Assembly (NCBI GenBank): GCA_003140895.1 | Contig: PLLH01000029.1 | Coordinates: forward strand, 1 to 41,107 | Length of the DNA stretch: 41,107 nt | Source: Elusimicrobiota bacterium | GTDB lineage: Bacteria; Elusimicrobiota; Elusimicrobia; F11 | Reading direction: 5' to 3' | Made by a program: the position numbers and the translations under genes | Notes under the pieces: model-generated | What the model was told of the DNA's origin: nothing | Database searches by the model: none | The model's input: only the letters and a program-made list of their open reading frames with translations | In this document: piece after piece, positions 23,148-34,354 of the stretch | Layout: each line of letters begins with the position of its first letter | How positions within the stretch are numbered: the stretch's first letter is position 1

Positions 23148-23363
23148 CAATTTATCATATTTTTCCTTAAGGCATGGGCGACACTTCTCCCCCCTTATTC
23201 AACGTCTAAAAGACATTGGAAACAAAAAACCGTTTCCCTCCTCCGTCCCTCTCTCAACCTCCCTTGAAAGAGGGCGGAGGAATTTCACAGGGGTGGACAA
23301 CTCATAGGAGTGAAGGGGAGAACCCCAATGGAGCCAGTATCGGATTGTGGTATAGTTATTGGC
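23148..23363. other. Intergenic region with an imperfect hairpin
   Basis: This spacer holds no credible gene. At 23240-23280 the arms CCTCCG-t-CCCTCT and AGAGGG-CGGAGG pair over 12 bp with one bulge and a purine/pyrimidine-biased loop. On the minus strand a T-rich stretch follows several nt after the stem, but no minus-strand gene ends here. A TATAGT at 23351-23356 lies just before the lipoprotein start, without a convincing -35 element. Confidence 0.4.
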
Positions 23364-24014
23364 ATGAAAAATAGGCTTCTCATCTGCTGTTCATCGCTCC
23401 TATTGGTACTCGCAAACGGTTGCGGCCCTAGTCTTAAATCCATCCAAACCTACATGGCGAGGTCACCTCATCAACGAGTGGCGGTGCTTCCCTTCGCGGC
23501 CCCGGCTGGCTATCCAACCCTAGGTGAGGAAGCCGCGGATTTGACCAGCCAGGAATTGGATGAAGTCGGGTTTACTCTCGTCGACCGGATGGACATAAAG
23601 AGAATTCTCGAGGAACAGAAGCTATCGATGACGGGAGCGGTCAAAGGCGAAGAGGCGGCGCAACTTGGAAAAATTCTCGGGGTGGAAGCCATCGTCACCG
23701 GGACCATCGGAGAAGCATCGCAGCACACCGTTCATCACCCCGCCGTCTATGCCCAGGAAACGGACGCCTCTTTTGACAACAAAGGGAAATGGAGAGAAAA
23801 ACCAAAAAAGACGCTGGTCAACCCGGCCGAAAACATTTCCGTCGCCATCTTTTCGGCCACGGTGCGGGTCATCGACGTTGATAGCGGGTCGCTTCTTTGG
23901 GTGGGATCGGGATCCGATCAGGCCGAAAACGTCACCATTCAGGAAGTGGGCACCTGGGTGCTTCACGGCATCTGCCGGGATATGGGCGCCAAATTTATTT
24001 CGAAGAAATTATAA
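23364..24014 (+). CDS. CsgG-family outer-membrane lipoprotein
   Basis: The 216-residue protein starts at ATG 23364 with a lipoprotein signal ending LLVLANGCGPSL; the lipid-carrying Cys would be residue 20. The body matches the N-terminal CsgG fold: RVAVLPFAAPAG, then ELDEVGFTLVDRMDIKRIL, EEQKLSMTGAVKGEEAAQLGK and ILGVEAIVTGTIGEA, followed by a strand pair with an inserted charged loop and DVDSGSLLWVGSGS. Full CsgG makes the curli pore; shorter relatives like this one are widespread and mostly uncharacterised. It is convergent with the PorV-OmpA fusion gene, 14 nt away, and similar in plan to the lipoprotein at 29912-30451. An in-frame upstream ATG at 23310 would bury the signal sequence. Confidence 0.8.
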   Translation: MKNRLLICCSSLLLVLANGCGPSLKSIQTYMARSPHQRVAVLPFAAPAGYPTLGEEAADLTSQELDEVGFTLVDRMDIKRILEEQKLSMTGAVKGEEAAQLGKILGVEAIVTGTIGEASQHTVHHPAVYAQETDASFDNKGKWREKPKKTLVNPAENISVAIFSATVRVIDVDSGSLLWVGSGSDQAENVTIQEVGTWVLHGICRDMGAKFISKKL

Positions 24015-24028
24015 TCCGCCGCTTCGCC

Positions 24029-26476
24029 TTACAACCCTCGTAGTTCAAACCAAATTTCAACGCGGCGGTTCCGGGCCAACGCATCGGGAGAATCTCCTTC
24101 CTCCAATGGATATTTCGATCCCATCCCTTTGATCTCATAGAGGAGATCCGGGTCCATGGTCTTTGTGCGCAGGTAATGAGCCACCGCCTCGGCTCGCGAT
24201 TTGGACAGGCGGGTGTTGGCCACCGGAGATCCGGTTTTATCCGAATGCCCTTCCACGACGACGCGGCGAGGCTTCATTTTGTTGATGGATTGGCCAATCG
24301 CATCCAGCGTCATCTGCGCTTCGACAGGGACAACCGCCTTCCCTTGTTGGAACGGAATGGTGGATTCCTGAGCCGTGATATTGAGCATCCGGACAATCGG
24401 GACCGCCGCCAAGCGCTCCAAATTTTTCCGCAGCTCCACCATCACCACTTTGAGGTCTTTTTGGATATCCCTCATCGAATACTGGGACTTGAGCAGAGCC
24501 GATTTCACTTCTTTCATTTGGGCTTTCAGCTGCCTTTTTTGTTCCCCCATTTCGACGGCCATGGATTTCTTTAAATTAAGCCTCATCTGCTGGAAATTCA
24601 GGATATCTCGCTGGAAATCCGTCTCCTGGGCACCCAACTCACCCATTTTTTTATTCAAATCCGAAACCGCGAGTTTTAATTCTCCCCGTAATGAGGACTC
24701 ACGCATGTATTCGGCGACCGACACGCCCGGAATCGCGTTCAGCTCTTTCAAATCGTGCCCGAATTTATCGGCAAAAGCCGTATCCCAACGACCTGGAATT
24801 AATTTCTCTTCGGGCGGGGTGATCGAGGTGGAAATGGCGTCTTCCTTCATCGTCGTCAACGGCCTCGTTTTTTCCTTTTTTTCTTCAGAGATCGTAAAGG
24901 TGGTGCGCGCGGAAAGTGGAGTCGTCACGCCATTGGACGTAAACGTCGCCGAACCGGAAACAATATCCAAAACCAATTTTTTATCTTCCAAATCCAATTG
25001 ACCTTGAACGCCGTCCAAATGAGCCTCTCCAACTTCCGTTTTAATATCCAGCTGTTTTCCCGGCGCCGTCACCGTGGCGAGAGAACCATGGTCGAGAGAA
25101 AGAGAACAGCGCTCGCAAATGGCGGGGCTTTCTTCGATTTTCACAAGCGTATTGGATTTAATTTCCGCCTGAGCGCCATTTGAGAAAATAAGGTGAGCGT
25201 ACGCGTTGGAGCGCGTTTGAACCATATCGCCTTGGAACAGAAATTTCCCGGGTTTGGCTTTCATCCATTGTTTTATATCCCGATGGCTCATTAACACGGA
25301 CACCGATCCTCTCGTTTTTGTGATAACCGCGTGAGGGCCGTCCGGCGTGCAAAGAGCGTCCCGGGCCAACAAACTCATAATCTTGTCTTGGGACGTCCGT
25401 TTCCCGGTCTTCGTTTTTTTCCATGGGAAAAGAGGGAGTTGGTCGGCGGTGATACGCGCCTTATAGACGGCCTTTGGTCTGCGGACAATCGGATTGTTAA
25501 ACAAAGCCGACTGAGAACTCAGCATCTCTTCTCCCCCCGGATACAACGAAGACGCATGAAACTCATAATCCAACGATATTCGATGCGTCTGCCCCAGATC
25601 GCCAAACGGAACCCAGGCGTAATTCAATTGAGCGCCGGCCCAGGAAACGCCCACGCCTCCAGCCACCCCCTTGAGCCCCGAGAGTTCGCTGGCCGCCTGC
25701 GTGTTGTACCCCGCGCGAAACGCCAACCCGAACGCGTCTCGTATCTCAAAGGCGTATTCGCTTCCCACCGCGACCCATCCATTCCCCGACCGAGGCTGCA
25801 CCACATCGGCGCTGAGAAATCCTCCGGGAATCAACTGGCAACTTAAGCCCGTGCGCCACCGCTGGGGAAGGGGCTCGGCCTTTTCGCGGAATTTAAGTTT
25901 GCCGCCAAAATTCTCCCCAACCATCGCTAAAGCAAACGGGCCAATGCCTTGATGAACGCCAAAACTCCCGGCCACCGTCGAAGCGGAATCCTGTATGGTC
26001 GATTGAATGAAGGAACCGGAGAGGCCGAGACTCGTTTTATGAAACGTTTTCGCGTACCCCATCCGAACATTGACATCCCGGGGTGAATAGGAGGGAGCGG
26101 CGGCGCCGGTGTTATCGTAAGACGCGACGGACCCCACGCTTAAATATTCGGCTCCGAACCCAAACGCGTGTTGATGCCCGAAGGGGATCGCCACCGCCAA
26201 CGTGTCAAACGTGAGGCCTTCCAGATACGCCGTGTGCATGAGGGAGAGGGACGGATTGTCTTTTCGGGACAACGTCGCGGGGTTGTACCAGAGGCCCACC
26301 GCCCCCGACGCCATCGAACTGGTGGCTTCTCCCATCGCCGCCCCCTTGGCGTCTCCCGGGAGCGACAAAAATTCGCCCGAGCTGGTTCCGGCCGCAGCCG
26401 CCACAAGTTCCTGGGAACAAGACAACGCCAACCCGACGACCCCCGCCCACAAAAGAAATCGAACGCGGCTTTTCAT
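24029..26476 (-). CDS. PorV/PorQ-like beta-barrel fused to FecR-like, coiled-coil and OmpA domains
   Basis: An unusual 815-residue outer-membrane protein. After a signal peptide (about 1-28), residues 30-305 resemble the PorV/PorQ (UPF0164) barrel: LSLPGDAKGAAMGEATS, VGLWYNPATLS, FGFGAEYLSVGS and repeated amphipathic strands. Residues about 380-530 are FecR-like (TRGSVSVL, FLFQGDMVQTRSNAYAHLIF, GAQAEIKSNTLVKIE). A charged helical, probably coiled-coil region spans 595-690. Residues 695-815 are a complete OmpA peptidoglycan-binding domain, with VEGHSDKTGSPVANTRLSKS, RAEAVAHYL and ARNRRVEIWF. PorV shuttles cargo in type IX secretion, and OmpA domains grip the wall; one chain doing both is not an arrangement I know. 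The ATG overlaps the stop of the large secreted protein gene by 4 nt, suggesting joint function. Confidence 0.82.
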   Translation of the reverse strand: MKSRVRFLLWAGVVGLALSCSQELVAAAAGTSSGEFLSLPGDAKGAAMGEATSSMASGAVGLWYNPATLSRKDNPSLSLMHTAYLEGLTFDTLAVAIPFGHQHAFGFGAEYLSVGSVASYDNTGAAAPSYSPRDVNVRMGYAKTFHKTSLGLSGSFIQSTIQDSASTVAGSFGVHQGIGPFALAMVGENFGGKLKFREKAEPLPQRWRTGLSCQLIPGGFLSADVVQPRSGNGWVAVGSEYAFEIRDAFGLAFRAGYNTQAASELSGLKGVAGGVGVSWAGAQLNYAWVPFGDLGQTHRISLDYEFHASSLYPGGEEMLSSQSALFNNPIVRRPKAVYKARITADQLPLFPWKKTKTGKRTSQDKIMSLLARDALCTPDGPHAVITKTRGSVSVLMSHRDIKQWMKAKPGKFLFQGDMVQTRSNAYAHLIFSNGAQAEIKSNTLVKIEESPAICERCSLSLDHGSLATVTAPGKQLDIKTEVGEAHLDGVQGQLDLEDKKLVLDIVSGSATFTSNGVTTPLSARTTFTISEEKKEKTRPLTTMKEDAISTSITPPEEKLIPGRWDTAFADKFGHDLKELNAIPGVSVAEYMRESSLRGELKLAVSDLNKKMGELGAQETDFQRDILNFQQMRLNLKKSMAVEMGEQKRQLKAQMKEVKSALLKSQYSMRDIQKDLKVVMVELRKNLERLAAVPIVRMLNITAQESTIPFQQGKAVVPVEAQMTLDAIGQSINKMKPRRVVVEGHSDKTGSPVANTRLSKSRAEAVAHYLRTKTMDPDLLYEIKGMGSKYPLEEGDSPDALARNRRVEIWFELRGL

Positions 26477-29400
26477 CGCTCAACGCCCCATTTGATCGTT
26501 CGATCTCCTCCGGCGTCGCTGCGCAGATAAATGAGATACACGCCGCTCGCCACCGGTTCGCCGTCATCGTTTTTCCCGTCCCATGTGGCGATGCCGGCCT
26601 GAGCCGGTTCAAATCGGAATTCTCTCACCAGCTGTCCATTGAGCGTATAAATTTGGATGAGCCCGCTTTGAGTGAGGAAAGAAAAAGTCACATTGGTTGC
26701 GTCGAATTTTCCATTGGAACCCACTTTCCATGGGCTGGGATAAATCCTGACTTGGGAAAGATCATTGGAAGCGGGAGAGCCAAAAAGCCCATAAACAGAA
26801 AAGTGGGGCAAAGAAACGTGAACGCGCCTGTTCGCCACATCCACCAGCGAATTGGCAACCGCTTCCCACAAACCGGTTGTTTCGTTGAGAACCATGATTC
26901 TCAACGAAGTGTTTCTCACCGTGACGGAATCTACAAGGCCGTCGCCGTTGGCGTCGGGATAGCGCAACGCCAAAGTGACCGCCCCGGAAAACCGCCCCGT
27001 AAAGGAACCTGAATTCGTGAACGCGAGGATTTCCCGAAGCGACCCGGGAACGAGCGACAAGCCGGAGAGATGCGTGTTGGCTGAGGTGATGAGCGCCGGA
27101 TCAATTTTCAGGGGAAAGGTCATGGGATCAAGGGACACATAAACCCGGCCGCTGCTCATGGCGCCCGCCGCCATGGTGAGAGTCGTGTCTCCATCCGGCG
27201 CCGCCAACGTCAGTCCTGTTGTCGGATAGGCCTGGATCAAAACGAAAACGCTCGACAACGCGTCCGTCACCGTCAACAGGTTTTGACCGCTCGGCGTTGA
27301 GACCTTCCCATCAATATTGTCAACTTCAATATCCCAGGAGCCCGCCGTGGTGCCGGTAAAATCCACGTTTCCGACGAGAGTTGTGGCGCCGCTCTGCCGC
27401 AAATTCGTTGGGACAATCGCTGAAAAACCGCTCCGCTTCACAAAGAACTTGGCCCCCGCCTGAAAATATTCCCCCGTCACGGTAATATCCAGTTTCCCGA
27501 GACTTTCAACCGTGGACGGGGCAACCGAATAGACCAAGGGGGGAGGAACGGGCAGCGTCATCGTGCTCACGCTGACAATGGCAGGGTCGATTTTCCCGTT
27601 TCCATTCAGGGTTTTAAGACGGTAATAGTAATGAGATCCGGGGACCAGACCCGTATCAATGAACGAGGTGGCCGTCGCGCTCGCGATGGCGGTAAAAACC
27701 ACGTTATTGGTCGAATGCTCAAGAACATAAAAAGTCCACGACGGGTTGGTGTTGGGGAGCCACGACAACGTGATGGAAGAAACGTTAACGGTGGGAGTCG
27801 GCGTTGAAGCGCTCACCGCGTTGGTGAAAATCGTGGCGATGGAAGAGGTGGACGTCCCCACATCCGTCGTGGACACCACAACACGGGAATAGGAGGTATT
27901 GGTGGAAAGTCCCACTTCCGTCCACGACGTCGTGCCGGACAGGAGCGGCGGGGACACGTCCCCTCCCGAAGACGCCTTGACGCTAAATCCGAGCGGATGG
28001 TTCACGATCGTCCACGACCACGTGATGCTGGAGACCCCCAGCGACGCTCCGGTAAATTGAGCGGGTGTCCCCAGCGTCCCCCAGTGAATGATATTGGAAG
28101 GATCGCTTTCATTCGCCTGACCGGCGTAGGTTCCTGTCGAGTCGATAACGGTGATGTCCGCCTGAAGCACACTCCCGCCCAAAACGGCCTTGATATTGGT
28201 CGTGGAGGAACTGGCTTCGAAGAGAGGAGACTCCACCGTCACACTCGCCACGCTCACAGGATCGAAATTGAGAGAAATCCCGCTGGGAATCCCGTTTCGG
28301 AAATCCAGCGATTTCAAGCGAACCGGATTGGCCCCGGCCACAAGATGAAGTCCGTTGGCGTCCAGCGAATCAAAAATGGCGGACCCTGAAATATTGATGG
28401 CGCCCGCCATCTCAGTCCCGAAATGAGACACCGTGGAAGCGGAGCTCATAAAAAGTCCGGATCCGTCCACGACTAACGTGCCGCTGTGAAGCCGCAAGAA
28501 AGAATTATTCCAGAAGACGAACCGTCCCGCGGCGGACGCCGGAACGCTCAGCGTCCCCTGCCCCACGACATCAATTTGGCTCCCCTGCATATTCACAATG
28601 CCACTATTTGAGAAGGTTCCTGTCCCAACGGTGACATTATTTTGAAACGTGATCGTACTGGCTCCGATCGAAAGAGTGGCGCCCCCGCTTGTCGAGGCGG
28701 GCCCAATGGTTGTCGTCCCCGCGACGCGATGGACAAACGAATCCCCCAAATCAAATCGGGCCGTGCTCCCGCTATCCCCGATGGAGAGATTCCCATTGAT
28801 CGTGACATTGGAAATCACATTGGCGGAAGCGCTCCCGATAAGCGAAACGTTATTGAACGCGTTTGTCGCCTTTTGCCGAATTCGATAGGTGCGAGCCCCC
28901 CCTTCGAAAACAACCATGCCCGTCCCCTGAACAAAAACTCCCCCGGTGTCATCCCAATTATTCAACGTGATCGAGTCGGCGCCCACTTGACTACCCCCGG
29001 TCAACGTGAGAGTCGAACTCCCCGCGTCGAACTGCCCTGAAAAAATATTAAAGGACCCATCAATGACCAAATCACTCAGCGCCTGAACCGACACTGTGTT
29101 CTGCGCCCATAAATTAAAGAAGTAGCTATCGTAAGCGCTCCCGACTTTATTCTTCACCATGGAGACCGTCTGGGATTGAGTTCCGTCAAAATAGACGAAT
29201 CCATCTTTCGCGGCGTGGAATTTCCCTCCCGTTTGAACAAAGGCCGATGAAATATTGATGTTATAGGCTCCCATATCAAACTCGCCGCCGGCAATCACCA
29301 CAGTCCCCAAATCCACACTGGCACCGGCCGTGGCCATGACGACCACGCTCGTAGAGAAGTTGGTGGTCATCTGGAAGTATTTGATTTCGCCAGCCAAATC

Positions 29401-29868
29401 CCAAACGCAGTTTTTGGTCGACGGCGCGACGTCGAACTGAACGGCGTCTCCATTTTGAGGCGCCACGCCGCCCGCCCAATTGGCCGTGCTGGACGCCAAC
29501 GAATCCAACCCTCCGCCGCTCCATCTTTTTCCATAAAGGAAATCCTGATTGATGGGGTCGCTGCTTAAGCTGGTGGTGGAACGAGCAAGAGGAGAAAAAA
29601 CGTATCCCGCTGTGGACGACGGAGTGACGGTATATGAATTGCCGACAACGAGATTGGGGAAGGAATACGCGCCGGCGGCATTGGTCGCTGTGAGAGAGGT
29701 GGACGACCCTGTGATGTTCAGCTGCACGTCTTGGATCGGGAGGCCATTTAAGTCGAGGATGGTGCCGGACAACGTGGCGTCCGCCCAAAGGAAAGGGCCC
29801 GCCCCGGACAGCAAGAGGGCGCAAACGAATAGCGTGGGAAATAAGTGGATCGATTTAATGAAACGCAT
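26473..29868 (-). CDS. Large secreted multidomain protein with FlgD/T9SS-like C-terminal domain
   Basis: From ATG 29868 the protein has 1131 residues; numbers here count from that start. A signal peptide (1-30) ends near FLWADA. A carboxypeptidase-regulatory/CnaB-like domain follows (about 31-112), then a long Gly/Ser/Thr/Asn-rich beta-repeat region (about 115-600) that looks like a beta-helix and opens with NWAGGVAPQNGDAVQFD. Two fibronectin-III-like domains (about 605-775), an IPT/TIG-like domain (about 780-870) and a DANGDGLVDS/HFSVYGLF module come next. The C-terminal 95 residues match the FlgD-Ig/type-A sorting plan: VRIYPSPWK, GLIQIYTLNGQLVREF, ATWDGKNDDGEPVASGVYLI. The gene is probably surface-displayed and is coupled to the PorV-OmpA fusion gene. 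Adhesin or matrix roles are inference. Confidence 0.82.
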   Translation of the reverse strand: MRFIKSIHLFPTLFVCALLLSGAGPFLWADATLSGTILDLNGLPIQDVQLNITGSSTSLTATNAAGAYSFPNLVVGNSYTVTPSSTAGYVFSPLARSTTSLSSDPINQDFLYGKRWSGGGLDSLASSTANWAGGVAPQNGDAVQFDVAPSTKNCVWDLAGEIKYFQMTTNFSTSVVVMATAGASVDLGTVVIAGGEFDMGAYNINISSAFVQTGGKFHAAKDGFVYFDGTQSQTVSMVKNKVGSAYDSYFFNLWAQNTVSVQALSDLVIDGSFNIFSGQFDAGSSTLTLTGGSQVGADSITLNNWDDTGGVFVQGTGMVVFEGGARTYRIRQKATNAFNNVSLIGSASANVISNVTINGNLSIGDSGSTARFDLGDSFVHRVAGTTTIGPASTSGGATLSIGASTITFQNNVTVGTGTFSNSGIVNMQGSQIDVVGQGTLSVPASAAGRFVFWNNSFLRLHSGTLVVDGSGLFMSSASTVSHFGTEMAGAINISGSAIFDSLDANGLHLVAGANPVRLKSLDFRNGIPSGISLNFDPVSVASVTVESPLFEASSSTTNIKAVLGGSVLQADITVIDSTGTYAGQANESDPSNIIHWGTLGTPAQFTGASLGVSSITWSWTIVNHPLGFSVKASSGGDVSPPLLSGTTSWTEVGLSTNTSYSRVVVSTTDVGTSTSSIATIFTNAVSASTPTPTVNVSSITLSWLPNTNPSWTFYVLEHSTNNVVFTAIASATATSFIDTGLVPGSHYYYRLKTLNGNGKIDPAIVSVSTMTLPVPPPLVYSVAPSTVESLGKLDITVTGEYFQAGAKFFVKRSGFSAIVPTNLRQSGATTLVGNVDFTGTTAGSWDIEVDNIDGKVSTPSGQNLLTVTDALSSVFVLIQAYPTTGLTLAAPDGDTTLTMAAGAMSSGRVYVSLDPMTFPLKIDPALITSANTHLSGLSLVPGSLREILAFTNSGSFTGRFSGAVTLALRYPDANGDGLVDSVTVRNTSLRIMVLNETTGLWEAVANSLVDVANRRVHVSLPHFSVYGLFGSPASNDLSQVRIYPSPWKVGSNGKFDATNVTFSFLTQSGLIQIYTLNGQLVREFRFEPAQAGIATWDGKNDDGEPVASGVYLIYLRSDAGGDRTIKWGVER

Positions 29869-29911
29869 GGATTTTCCGTCCATCTCGAGGGATGGGGAGC
29901 TGAAGTCTAAC

Positions 29912-30451
29912 TTATTCGGCTTTAACCGATGCGTTGAATTTCGTCTTTAATTTCTTGGCGAGATCGGCGGCGGCCCGGTACCCCACGCTCGGGTCTCCGG
30001 TGGCAAAGGTGGTGGCCATGAGCTCGGCGCTTTGGACATTCACGATGCGAAGTTCAACATGGAACTTGCTCCCGTCAGATGCCAAAACTCGAACCGTTCC
30101 CATCAAAACCATATTAATACCGAGGATTTTCCCCACTTCAACGGAGGTGGTTGTATTGACGACGCCGGAGCGTTGGAATTTTTGTTCCTTGAGGATATTG
30201 TCCACGACGTCCCGGTCGACGACGCGGAAGGAATTCTCTAAAAAGCCCGATTCCACCATGTTGCGCCAATTTTGGCGAACCACGGTGAGGTCTTCATCGC
30301 CGTAGCCGGACAATTCGATGGGAAGAACCGCGATCCGCGCCTTCTCAGGCAGAGCCAAATCGGGGCTCATGGTCGTATTCATAACAAGATTTCGGGTTGT
30401 GCAACCTGTAAGGAGACAGGAAAGAAGACCAGCGAGCAAAATGTTTTTCAT
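29912..30451 (-). CDS. CsgG-like lipoprotein, 179 aa
   Basis: The lipoprotein signal is LLAGLLSCLLTGCTT with Cys17 as the predicted lipid site. The mature part follows the CsgG N-terminal pattern: RIAVLPIELSG, FRVVDRDVVDNILKEQKFQ, VEVGKILGINMVLMGTVRVL, then FHVELRIVNVQSAELMATTF. It is paralogous in plan to the lipoprotein at 23364-24014, which points the other way; the two flank the secreted-protein/PorV-OmpA pair. A 43-nt gap leads to the large secreted protein gene on the same strand. It may form or regulate an outer-membrane complex, but that is not shown by sequence. Confidence 0.78.
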   Translation of the reverse strand: MKNILLAGLLSCLLTGCTTRNLVMNTTMSPDLALPEKARIAVLPIELSGYGDEDLTVVRQNWRNMVESGFLENSFRVVDRDVVDNILKEQKFQRSGVVNTTTSVEVGKILGINMVLMGTVRVLASDGSKFHVELRIVNVQSAELMATTFATGDPSVGYRAAADLAKKLKTKFNASVKAE

Positions 30452-31876: not shown

Positions 31877-34354
31877 TTAATACGTGTTCTTGATGGTGTT
31901 CAGGACGGGATCCAACGGCAATCGAGATGATTGATCCGGCGATTGGTGCAGCTTTTTCAGGTATTCCTCCGGCGAGAACTGATAGAACCCCAAATATTCA
32001 TACAGAGAATTGACGGGCTGCCACATCCAGCCCCGCGTGTCATACGCCTGGGAAAAAGAATACTTCCGAATGATGTTGGTGGCCGCTTCCTCCGCTTTTT
32101 CCCGCGCCGCCACCCGGGCCACGTCGTCAAACCGCGCGCGCGCCAATTTGGCAACCTCCGAATAGGCCATGAACCGGATAAACTCGCCGGCGCCGATGTG
32201 ATAAAGCGCCCAATATTTTTTGTAAAGAGGGCCCAAATCTTTCACCTTCACGCGATCCTGCCCATAAAGCGGATATTTGTCCTTGGAACGACGCGCCACG
32301 TCGTTTTGCGTTCGAGCCACCTCGCACCAATCGGGATGTTCTCTCAGCATTCGTTCCACCGAAGCGGCGGCCAACTTCCATTGGTTCTCCGTGTCGGGCC
32401 CGCCGGCGCGGGCCACTCTCACATAATCCCACGCTTCTTGAAGGTAAATCTCCGCCTCGGTGATGAGACCGCTGTCTTCTTTTGACGCGACCTGGTCCAG
32501 CGACGGCTCAAAGCTCAAAGGCGATTTAATGCTGAATTTGCCGCCGTTCATATGGAACGGGTCGAACCGGAGAGCTCCCAGCGTCCGGCTGATTCCCCCG
32601 ATGAGCGCGTAGGGCTCGTGATGCGTGTTCCAGCCGAAACCAACCGGCTTATTAAGAGAGTAGGGCATCGCGTGCGCGTACGGATACGCCAGAGAGTCAT
32701 TGTCCATTTTATACGCGCCTTTAAACCCATCGCTCAAGGCGTTTTCCTTGTAATACCCCAAATAGACTTTGGCCCGGCGCTCGTTTCCGAGCAGGAGATA
32801 ATCCTCCGCCAATCGCAAATCCGCCAGCGCCATCCAGGTGGACCATTCGTCGGTTAACAGAGGTTCGCGCCCCATGCCTTTTTTAACTTTGACGTCTCCA
32901 TCCGGGCCTTCCTCTTCAAAAAGAACCAATTTGGCCCGGTCTTCGGCGGAAATAAAGTCATATCCTGAAAATTTCACTTCGGTCCCATCGTCCAGCGTTC
33001 GGACCAAATTCACCTTAAAATGATCATCAACCGCTTGCCGGATTTTCAGCGCCCCATGAGGCTCAAACCGATCTAACCCTTCGACGCCGTACACCGAAAT
33101 TTTTAGCGCCGTTGTGTCCAACGGATGAATGGGCATCACCCCCGCTTTCAACCATTGACCGATGTTGGGCTCATAGAAAGGAACCTCCGTCGTCCCGATA
33201 TAAAAGAGGTGCCTCTTCTTATCGTAAATTTTCTTATCCCACACGCTGATGAGAGCGGAGGCTTTGGCGTATTCTTCGGCGTGGGTTTCATCGACTTGAG
33301 CGAGGAGATCCGACAAGGCCTTAAAATCAGCCGCGTGCTCCCCGTTATAGAATTGATACCAAGACGGGTTCCCCGCTTTAAAATCAAGCCGTTGTTCCTG
33401 CGGGTTCTCCGGATTTCCCATGGGGCCCATCCGAATGCCGCCGTAATTCGGATCCCCTTTCTTTTCGTTTTGAAGATCTTTGATCAGCATCCACCGTTCA
33501 CGGGCAAACCGCAGATATTTTCTCTCGCCGGTGGCCCGGTACAAATGGATCGAGGCGATACCCAAATAGGCGTTCGGCCCCGCATGCGCGATGTGCTCAA
33601 TGCCGCGGCCGCCGGGACGCCCTTCGGCGCCGTCCACAATATTGACGATCCAGCCTTCCCGGATCATGCGACGGCCGTCTTTGGTAATCCATCCCGTTTT
33701 CTGGATGGCTTTGTTCGCCATGAAATAGTCGATGGTTTTTTTGGCTGTTTCAATATCTCCCGTCTTAATATGAAGAATGGTTCTCATGGCGTCGTCGTAA
33801 ATAACGCTCCAGTGCCGGAGGCGTCGATCCCCCGGGAGGCTATACGCCATATGGGTATTGCTGTTGATATTGGAATAGATGTATTTGAGGACTCGGTTCA
33901 AATGATCCACCTGTTCCAGAGTCAACGGGGGAAGATATTTGGCGAAGTTGATATTTTTTGTTTTAAACCGGGGCGAACGAGACATCTCAACCGGCATCTC
34001 CGGCTGCGATGAAAGCTGTTTGAGACGCAAAGACCGGGGAAGCGATTTCAACAATTCCGCGGCAGATCCTCCCGACATTTTCGGCAGGAACACGTCCATC
34101 AGAGTCCGATTATCGAAGAGCCAATTTAAAAGAAGTCCCAACAGGGTGGCGATCAACAAACTCATGAAAAACAAGCCGATTCCCCGCCGTTTTTTCTCCT
34201 GGGGAGCGTCGAATTTCTTAAGACGGTCTATCTCATCAAGAATTTTGGGAGGTAATAAGGTACGCGCAGGATGGAGCAGCGTCCCTCCGCGAGGAGAAGC
34301 AAGGCCGGAACGTCTCTCCGGTGAAGTTGAACCAATGGCTGACTTATTGGGCAT
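31877..34354 (-). CDS. Membrane-anchored 825-aa protein, possible (alpha/alpha)6 glycosidase-like fold
   Basis: I do not recognise a named family. Residues 1-57 are polar and basic, 59-80 form one transmembrane helix, and the remaining roughly 740 residues are soluble and mostly helical, presumably periplasmic. Features are HWSVIYDDAMRTILHIKTGD, AHAGPNAYLGIASIHLYRATGE, FYNGEHAADFKALSDLL and LTDEWSTWMALADLRLAEDY, repeating pairs of helices with aromatic and acidic residues at their ends. That resembles (alpha/alpha)6-toroid glycoside hydrolases and lyases. Catalytic residues cannot be assigned by eye. It is first in the minus-strand block leading to thyA and folA, with a 226-nt divergent spacer before it. 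A role in surface polysaccharide handling is a guess. Confidence 0.6.
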   Translation of the reverse strand: MPNKSAIGSTSPERRSGLASPRGGTLLHPARTLLPPKILDEIDRLKKFDAPQEKKRRGIGLFFMSLLIATLLGLLLNWLFDNRTLMDVFLPKMSGGSAAELLKSLPRSLRLKQLSSQPEMPVEMSRSPRFKTKNINFAKYLPPLTLEQVDHLNRVLKYIYSNINSNTHMAYSLPGDRRLRHWSVIYDDAMRTILHIKTGDIETAKKTIDYFMANKAIQKTGWITKDGRRMIREGWIVNIVDGAEGRPGGRGIEHIAHAGPNAYLGIASIHLYRATGERKYLRFARERWMLIKDLQNEKKGDPNYGGIRMGPMGNPENPQEQRLDFKAGNPSWYQFYNGEHAADFKALSDLLAQVDETHAEEYAKASALISVWDKKIYDKKRHLFYIGTTEVPFYEPNIGQWLKAGVMPIHPLDTTALKISVYGVEGLDRFEPHGALKIRQAVDDHFKVNLVRTLDDGTEVKFSGYDFISAEDRAKLVLFEEEGPDGDVKVKKGMGREPLLTDEWSTWMALADLRLAEDYLLLGNERRAKVYLGYYKENALSDGFKGAYKMDNDSLAYPYAHAMPYSLNKPVGFGWNTHHEPYALIGGISRTLGALRFDPFHMNGGKFSIKSPLSFEPSLDQVASKEDSGLITEAEIYLQEAWDYVRVARAGGPDTENQWKLAAASVERMLREHPDWCEVARTQNDVARRSKDKYPLYGQDRVKVKDLGPLYKKYWALYHIGAGEFIRFMAYSEVAKLARARFDDVARVAAREKAEEAATNIIRKYSFSQAYDTRGWMWQPVNSLYEYLGFYQFSPEEYLKKLHQSPDQSSRLPLDPVLNTIKNTY

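Follow-up and report, generated by a model that had tools for sequence, protein, structure and literature searches.

The 41,107-nucleotide stretch of contig PLLH01000029.1 analysed here (the window) contains a gene, P0001, whose single reading frame joins a PorV-type outer membrane barrel to a periplasmic tail ending in an OmpA-type peptidoglycan-binding domain, and whose start overlaps by 4 bp (ATGA) with the 3' end of P0002, the gene of a putative surface protein with a sorting domain of type IX secretion systems (T9SS). We consider it probable, at roughly 0.6, that P0001 is a cargo-dedicated type IX carrier which doubles as a peptidoglycan anchor for its cargo. The relevant features are as follows.

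24029..26476, minus strand: fusion gene P0001, 815 aa, a single ORF with PorV-type barrel, FecR-like domain, helical hairpin and OmpA domain
26396..26476, minus strand: P0001 signal peptide, residues 1-27 (approximate), with a hydrophobic N-terminal helix at 2-19
25559..26380, minus strand: PorV/PorQ-family 14-strand beta-barrel with N-terminal hatch, residues 33-306 (NF033709, model, Foldseek)
24887..25339, minus strand: FecR-like/DUF7354 periplasmic beta domain, residues 380-530 (PF04773, PF24045, model)
24404..24697, minus strand: two-helix antiparallel hairpin, residues 594-691 (helices 594-641 and 645-691 in the model)
24032..24394, minus strand: OmpA peptidoglycan-binding domain, residues 695-815, with D746 and R761 (PF00691, alignments with solved OmpA-like domains)
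26473..29883, minus strand: cargo gene P0002, 1136-aa surface protein (SdrD_B-like, fn3, C-terminal sorting domain; profile searches, pair conserved in loci L040 and L041)
26476..26760, minus strand: type-A T9SS C-terminal domain of P0002, with the conserved lysine K1131 (profile, fold, family alignment)
29912..30451, minus strand: P0003, CsgG/LpoB-like lipoprotein (PF03783, E 2.2e-9), upstream of P0002 in the same direction

The PorV/PorQ family profile NF033709 matched residues 33-216 of P0001 with an E value of 4e-36 (125.2 bits, cut-off 90), and in the AlphaFold2 model (24 sequences in the alignment, mean pLDDT 81) residues 35-305 form an N-terminal helical hatch and 14 strands, mostly with pLDDT >90. 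In Foldseek searches, the top matches of the barrel were PorV chains from solved T9SS translocon structures (8gl6_F, E 2e-12; 6h3i_F, E 5e-11), and FadL and TodX came next; the predicted model and these matches describe a 14-strand FadL-type barrel with N-terminal hatch, in agreement with the PorV/PorQ-like barrel that the initial annotation had placed in the first ~300 residues. The annotation's equation of PF03349 with UPF0164 was mistaken, UPF0164 being PF03687 and PF03349 being Toluene_X/FadL. The Pfam PorV model stayed under its cut-off on P0001 (17.6 of 27 bits). Both the narrower PorV and the narrower PorQ equivalog models were likewise below their cut-offs, so that P0001, by its profile matches a PorV-family protein, is not PorV or PorQ proper. 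Inspection of the N-terminus by eye did not reveal a canonical lipobox.

The FecR-like beta domain proposed for residues 380-530 was recovered by PF04773 (FecR; E 2.7e-6, 28.1 bits, cut-off 24, residues 418-510) and DUF7354 (PF24045; E 5.6e-8, residues 379-449) and as a predicted beta domain with pLDDT >90 for most of its length; disordered linkers are predicted at 309-364 and 530-564. What had been read as a coiled coil at 595-690 is indeed helical, but rather forms one antiparallel hairpin of two helices. With a pTM of 0.44, the relative placement of the domains is not to be read from this model. The OmpA domain at 695-815 was found as annotated: residues 709-804 matched PF00691 (E 1.3e-14), and in Foldseek the tail matched OmpA-type domains, including the peptidoglycan-peptide complex 3td5. 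Asp271 and Arg286 of Acinetobacter baumannii OmpA bind diaminopimelate (PMC5974059). Since D746 and R761 of P0001 correspond to this pair by the same spacing of 15 and are invariant in 5/5 aligned sequences, the domain, which thus has both the family fold and the two diaminopimelate-binding residues, likely binds peptidoglycan. The OmpA domain of a divergent fusion (L041) is less typical, with D and R retained. Tethering of the barrel to peptidoglycan through the fusion, as originally suggested, is therefore probable; the sensor-like role that formed part of the same suggestion fails on architecture, because P0001 has a signal peptide and a barrel instead of a cytoplasmic FecR N-domain or an inner-membrane segment, and no sigma-factor family was found among the window genes scanned.

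Collinear full-length homologues occur in two other genera (800 aa, 46% identity, genome G001; 797 aa, 34%, genome G002, the Candidatus Obscuribacterium magneticum record), which excludes an assembly join of two genes; the fusion is real, and the single-gene frame of the initial annotation stands. The record Elusimicrobia bacterium RA.bin92 (G003), of a third genus, contains a 541-aa homologue ended by the contig start, and G002 contains a second fusion copy interrupted by a contig end. The two ends of the G002 contig C82 (L043, L044) repeat one another in inverted orientation, and this assembly palindrome cuts the second copy. A contig scan with P0001 alone gave no locus, a rescan with the alignment four. 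Counting the host (G000), which we assign to one family of Elusimicrobia by its relatives, the fusion is present in all four genera of that family (G000, G001, G002, G003). The survey across Elusimicrobiota proposed at the outset placed the full architecture there: in a search of 295 genomes of the phylum, the full-length profile of P0001 was confined to this family, the barrel alone being found among the matches listed elsewhere. A query with the FecR-hairpin-OmpA tail, run on 147 genomes of the class, also retrieved the tail from this family only, and elsewhere essentially the OmpA part alone matched. Conservation of the tail among the homologues is lower in its FecR-like domain.

P0002 begins with a hydrophobic, signal-like N-terminus. 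In profile searches, its C-terminal domain matched the C-terminus of PorZ (E 1.3e-11), FlgD_ig (E 5e-7) and, weakly and under cut-off, the type-A sorting model TIGR04183 (E 0.0037, 17.2 of 23 bits). A model of the last 260 residues (mean pLDDT 46.7 overall) was usable for the last 95, and Foldseek aligned the C-terminal domain with PorZ 5m11 over 99 columns at 3.1 A. A FlgD-only reading of the C-terminus was rejected, as the PorZ C-terminal domain fits better by both profile and fold. Type-A domains have a lysine near the C-terminus that is nearly invariant and matters for function (PMC10994853); P0002 has this lysine together with a C-terminal Ig-like domain and type-A motifs. The P0001/P0002 gene pair is present in three genera, in G001 along with the preceding genes of thymidylate synthase, dihydrofolate reductase and the CsgG/LpoB-like lipoprotein, and in G002 at another site. 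At the same place in G001, P0003 is about 81% identical, its neighbours 46-69%. Fused CsgG/LpoB tails of other PorV-family barrels resemble P0003 (48.9 bits for the tail at L125, with two sequences as the comparison set), a hint that P0003 is possibly a third partner in a P0001/P0002 complex. A second, related CsgG/LpoB-like lipoprotein is encoded at 23310-24014 (+) of the window and together with P0003 flanks the pair. The window further encodes, at 31877-34354 (-), a protein of 825 aa that matches neither Pfam nor NCBIfam models and may have a single membrane segment around residues 60-80. Evidence worth citing for promoter or terminator signals was not obtained.

The host genome contains about 22 PorV-family barrels and 29 matches to the sorting-domain profile, so that part of the cargo must lack a carrier or use one jointly with other cargo. 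Neighbour statistics, based on contig stretches around the loci, assigned a same-strand sorting-domain gene nearby to 20 of the 22 barrels, mostly directly before the barrel gene; the barrel gene precedes its partner in three pairs, including that of a LysM-tailed barrel. Of the two unpaired barrels, one is a fragment lying at the end of a contig and the other is fused to a subtilase. Another divergent barrel, at L089, also has a partner. Distances among barrels and among sorting domains were correlated (Mantel r 0.46, 20 pairs), a value reached by 0 of 20,000 permutations; omission of three weak or partial pairs gave r 0.41, again reached by no permutation, and the smallest subset (9 pairs, two close subgroups removed) gave p 0.06. 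The nearest relative of the P0001 barrel and that of the P0002 domain belong to the same unfused pair (L062), and the fusion thus probably arose by gain of a tail on an ordinary carrier of a duplicated pair. At 22 of 26 best-hit loci in other genomes, a sorting-domain ORF was located within the 1.5 kb flank.

Tails of other kinds occur on further barrels. A LysM tail in the host genome (L069:7128-8384 (+), contig C85), on a barrel encoded before its sorting-domain partner, is by sequence a second, unrelated wall-binding tail, and TPR tails are found at six host loci (L064, L074, L077, L078, L079, L089). Relatives have tails with HEAT repeats (L025-L027), OmpA plus LysM (L120), CsgG (L125), CarboxypepD_reg (L126) and LpoB (L129), and OmpA plus TPR occurs in another class (L123); the sample with L120, L123, L125, L126 and L129 was picked for long frames and hence indicates the range of modules, not their frequency. 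One host barrel (L075:1591-2892 (-), contig C98) matches PorP/SprF (PF11751, E 7e-8) and UPF0164 and has its own C-terminal FlgD_ig-like domain. The initial annotation, concerned with the one chain, mentioned neither these other C-terminal modules (two with OmpA) nor the overlapping cargo gene, the genome-wide pairing or the missing PorU sortase.

The SprA translocon of Bacteroidota-type T9SS is represented in the host genome by one protein of 1871 aa (L091:7267-12882), which matches TIGR04189 with E 2.2e-32, below the curated cut-off, and an Elusimicrobiota SprA homologue with E 0; the SprA_N Pfam model missed it, and a query from within the phylum recovered it. SprA was found in 58 of 60 relatives. 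The PorU sortase of the Bacteroidota-type system is missing: its family, peptidase C25, was absent from 146 of 147 genomes of the class, including all 108 of good quality, and the single match came from a genome with 14% contamination. A PorU replacement outside family C25 could exist. A subtilase (S8, E 1e-50) is fused N-terminally to a PorV-family barrel with no assigned sorting-domain partner (L076:5231-7867 (-), host contig C5), and from its domains this protein could be a protease for processing at the surface in the absence of the C25 sortase. Motor components gave no match over cut-off in searches that were insensitive for GldM_1st (0 of 60 genomes) and insensitive and without positive control for GldL (0 of 21). 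In the 60-genome sample, 47 genomes have both PorV and sorting domains; the other 13, all of family f10, gave no PorV match at E 1e-20 and 0-1 sorting domains. These 13 genomes keep SprA, which may thus have another role in Elusimicrobiota. Two further f10 genomes of the larger sample do have barrels, so that the loss of PorV is not family-wide.

In Bacteroidota, type-A cargo is collected from SprA by PorV, which then hands it over (PMC12618676, PMC10994853); type-B cargo remains on its cognate PorP/SprF carrier, for which fixation to the wall by PorE has been proposed in some cases (PMC12618676, PMC9143113). P0001 shares with the PorV proteins of Flavobacterium johnsoniae and Porphyromonas gingivalis the FadL-fold 14-strand barrel, a type-A cargo partner and an SprA in the genome; whereas those are described as shuttles that serve all type-A cargo, P0001 is one of about 22 barrels, has one paired cargo and carries a 500-residue periplasmic tail with OmpA domain. 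It resembles the PorP/SprF plus PorE systems (PG1035-PorP-PorE; Fjoh_3952-3951-3950) in that a cognate carrier is encoded directly after the cargo, and in that an OmpA-type domain is proposed to hold the assembly statically at the wall. There, however, two proteins share the tasks of carrier and wall binder, and the signal is of type B, whereas P0001 is one chain with a PorV-family barrel and a type-A signal in its partner (PMC9143113, PMC12618676). PorE, the wall-binding partner of PorP, has OmpA, TPR and carboxypeptidase-regulatory domains (PMC9143113), all of which also occur as tails of PorV-family barrels in the phylum. By analogy, P0001 is best read as a one-chain equivalent of the PorP/SprF plus PorE complex. 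Our literature search found no paper linking PorV, Elusimicrobiota and type IX secretion, and no report of PorV fused to OmpA among the hits listed. Every part of P0001 has a known counterpart; its interest lies in the context, a dedicated cargo and a set of carriers with exchangeable tails across the phylum.

In the mechanism we propose, P0002 would pass the inner membrane via Sec and enter the SprA pore; the P0001 barrel would dock at the lateral gate of SprA and grip the C-terminal domain of P0002 with its outer loops. The loaded carrier would then depart from SprA and, in the absence of a PorU sortase that would cleave the cargo and attach it anew, remain bound to it; the missing sortase and the gene pairing are the grounds for this step. 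The periplasmic tail, consisting of the beta domain, a helical hairpin of about 7 nm, flexible linkers and the OmpA domain, would grip diaminopimelate-type peptidoglycan, so that P0002 is displayed at a fixed site. Docking to SprA, cargo specificity, wall binding and lasting anchorage are thus what we infer for P0001. Against this speaks that a wall tether might hinder docking, the known PorV proteins being mobile shuttles.

P0001 could instead be a general wall-tethered shuttle for many type-A cargos, or position SprA relative to the wall, with P0002 as one client. A single PorV handles the whole of the type-A cargo in Bacteroidota (PMC12618676), and sorting domains outnumber barrels in the host genome; the nearly one-to-one pairing and the correlation of distances, in a genome that has 22 barrels, and the restriction of the fusion to one family, where it has the same P0002-type partner, make this alternative unlikely. 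Somewhat less likely still, P0001 would be mainly an envelope tether, an analogue of OmpA/Pal with the PorV-like barrel as its outer-membrane foot and no role in secretion. OmpA has an 8-strand barrel and no cargo partner. The order of barrel, spacer and OmpA domain is that of OmpA and OprF, which likewise combine an outer-membrane barrel and a periplasmic OmpA domain on one chain, and the OmpA domain of P0001 is conserved; P0001 differs, however, in its PorV-type barrel and in the beta domain and helical spacer before the OmpA domain. A general tether would need no 4-bp overlap with a sorting-domain cargo gene that is kept across genera, and paralogues without a wall-binding domain show the same cargo pairing.

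Two further readings appear very improbable. That the FecR-like domain makes P0001 a sensor, reporting cargo export or the state of the wall to a sigma factor, would agree with the PF04773 match just over cut-off and with the beta domain shared with FecR anti-sigma regulators; these, however, have the cytoplasmic domain and the inner-membrane helix which P0001 lacks, the window genes scanned include no sigma-factor family, and the domain is not the well-conserved part of the tail. The sigma-regulator reading was rejected on this architecture. Equally remote is a small-molecule channel of FadL/TodX type fused to OmpA and unrelated to secretion: FadL and TodX are structural relatives of the barrel, but the PorV/PorQ model scores above cut-off, PorV structures come first in Foldseek, and the neighbouring gene encodes a likely cargo. 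The carrier-anchor function remains the reading we prefer for P0001. Its extension to the phylum is more tentative, and we regard it as possible, though short of an even chance: a sortase-less type IX system in Elusimicrobiota, with a separate PorV carrier for every cargo. The carrier would stay bound after export, exchangeable tails (OmpA, LysM, LpoB/CsgG-like, TPR, HEAT) would set the site of the cargo in the envelope, and carriers would thereby stand in for the PorU attachment complex.

According to the papers found, a single PorV shuttle serves type-A cargo, whose next step is release or covalent attachment by PorU; dedicated carriers belong to type-B cargo. The locus and the pairing suggest that in another phylum type-A cargo, too, has dedicated carriers, some of them joined covalently to wall anchors. 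P0001 bears on the questions whether carriers must diffuse to work and how proteins are retained at the surface where the C25 sortase is absent; a wall-anchored carrier next to its likely cargo points to a means by which surface proteins could be held in place when the usual attachment enzyme is absent. The pairing also provides a rule for reading genomes in a group that is largely uncultured, in that the gene beside a PorV barrel probably encodes cargo.
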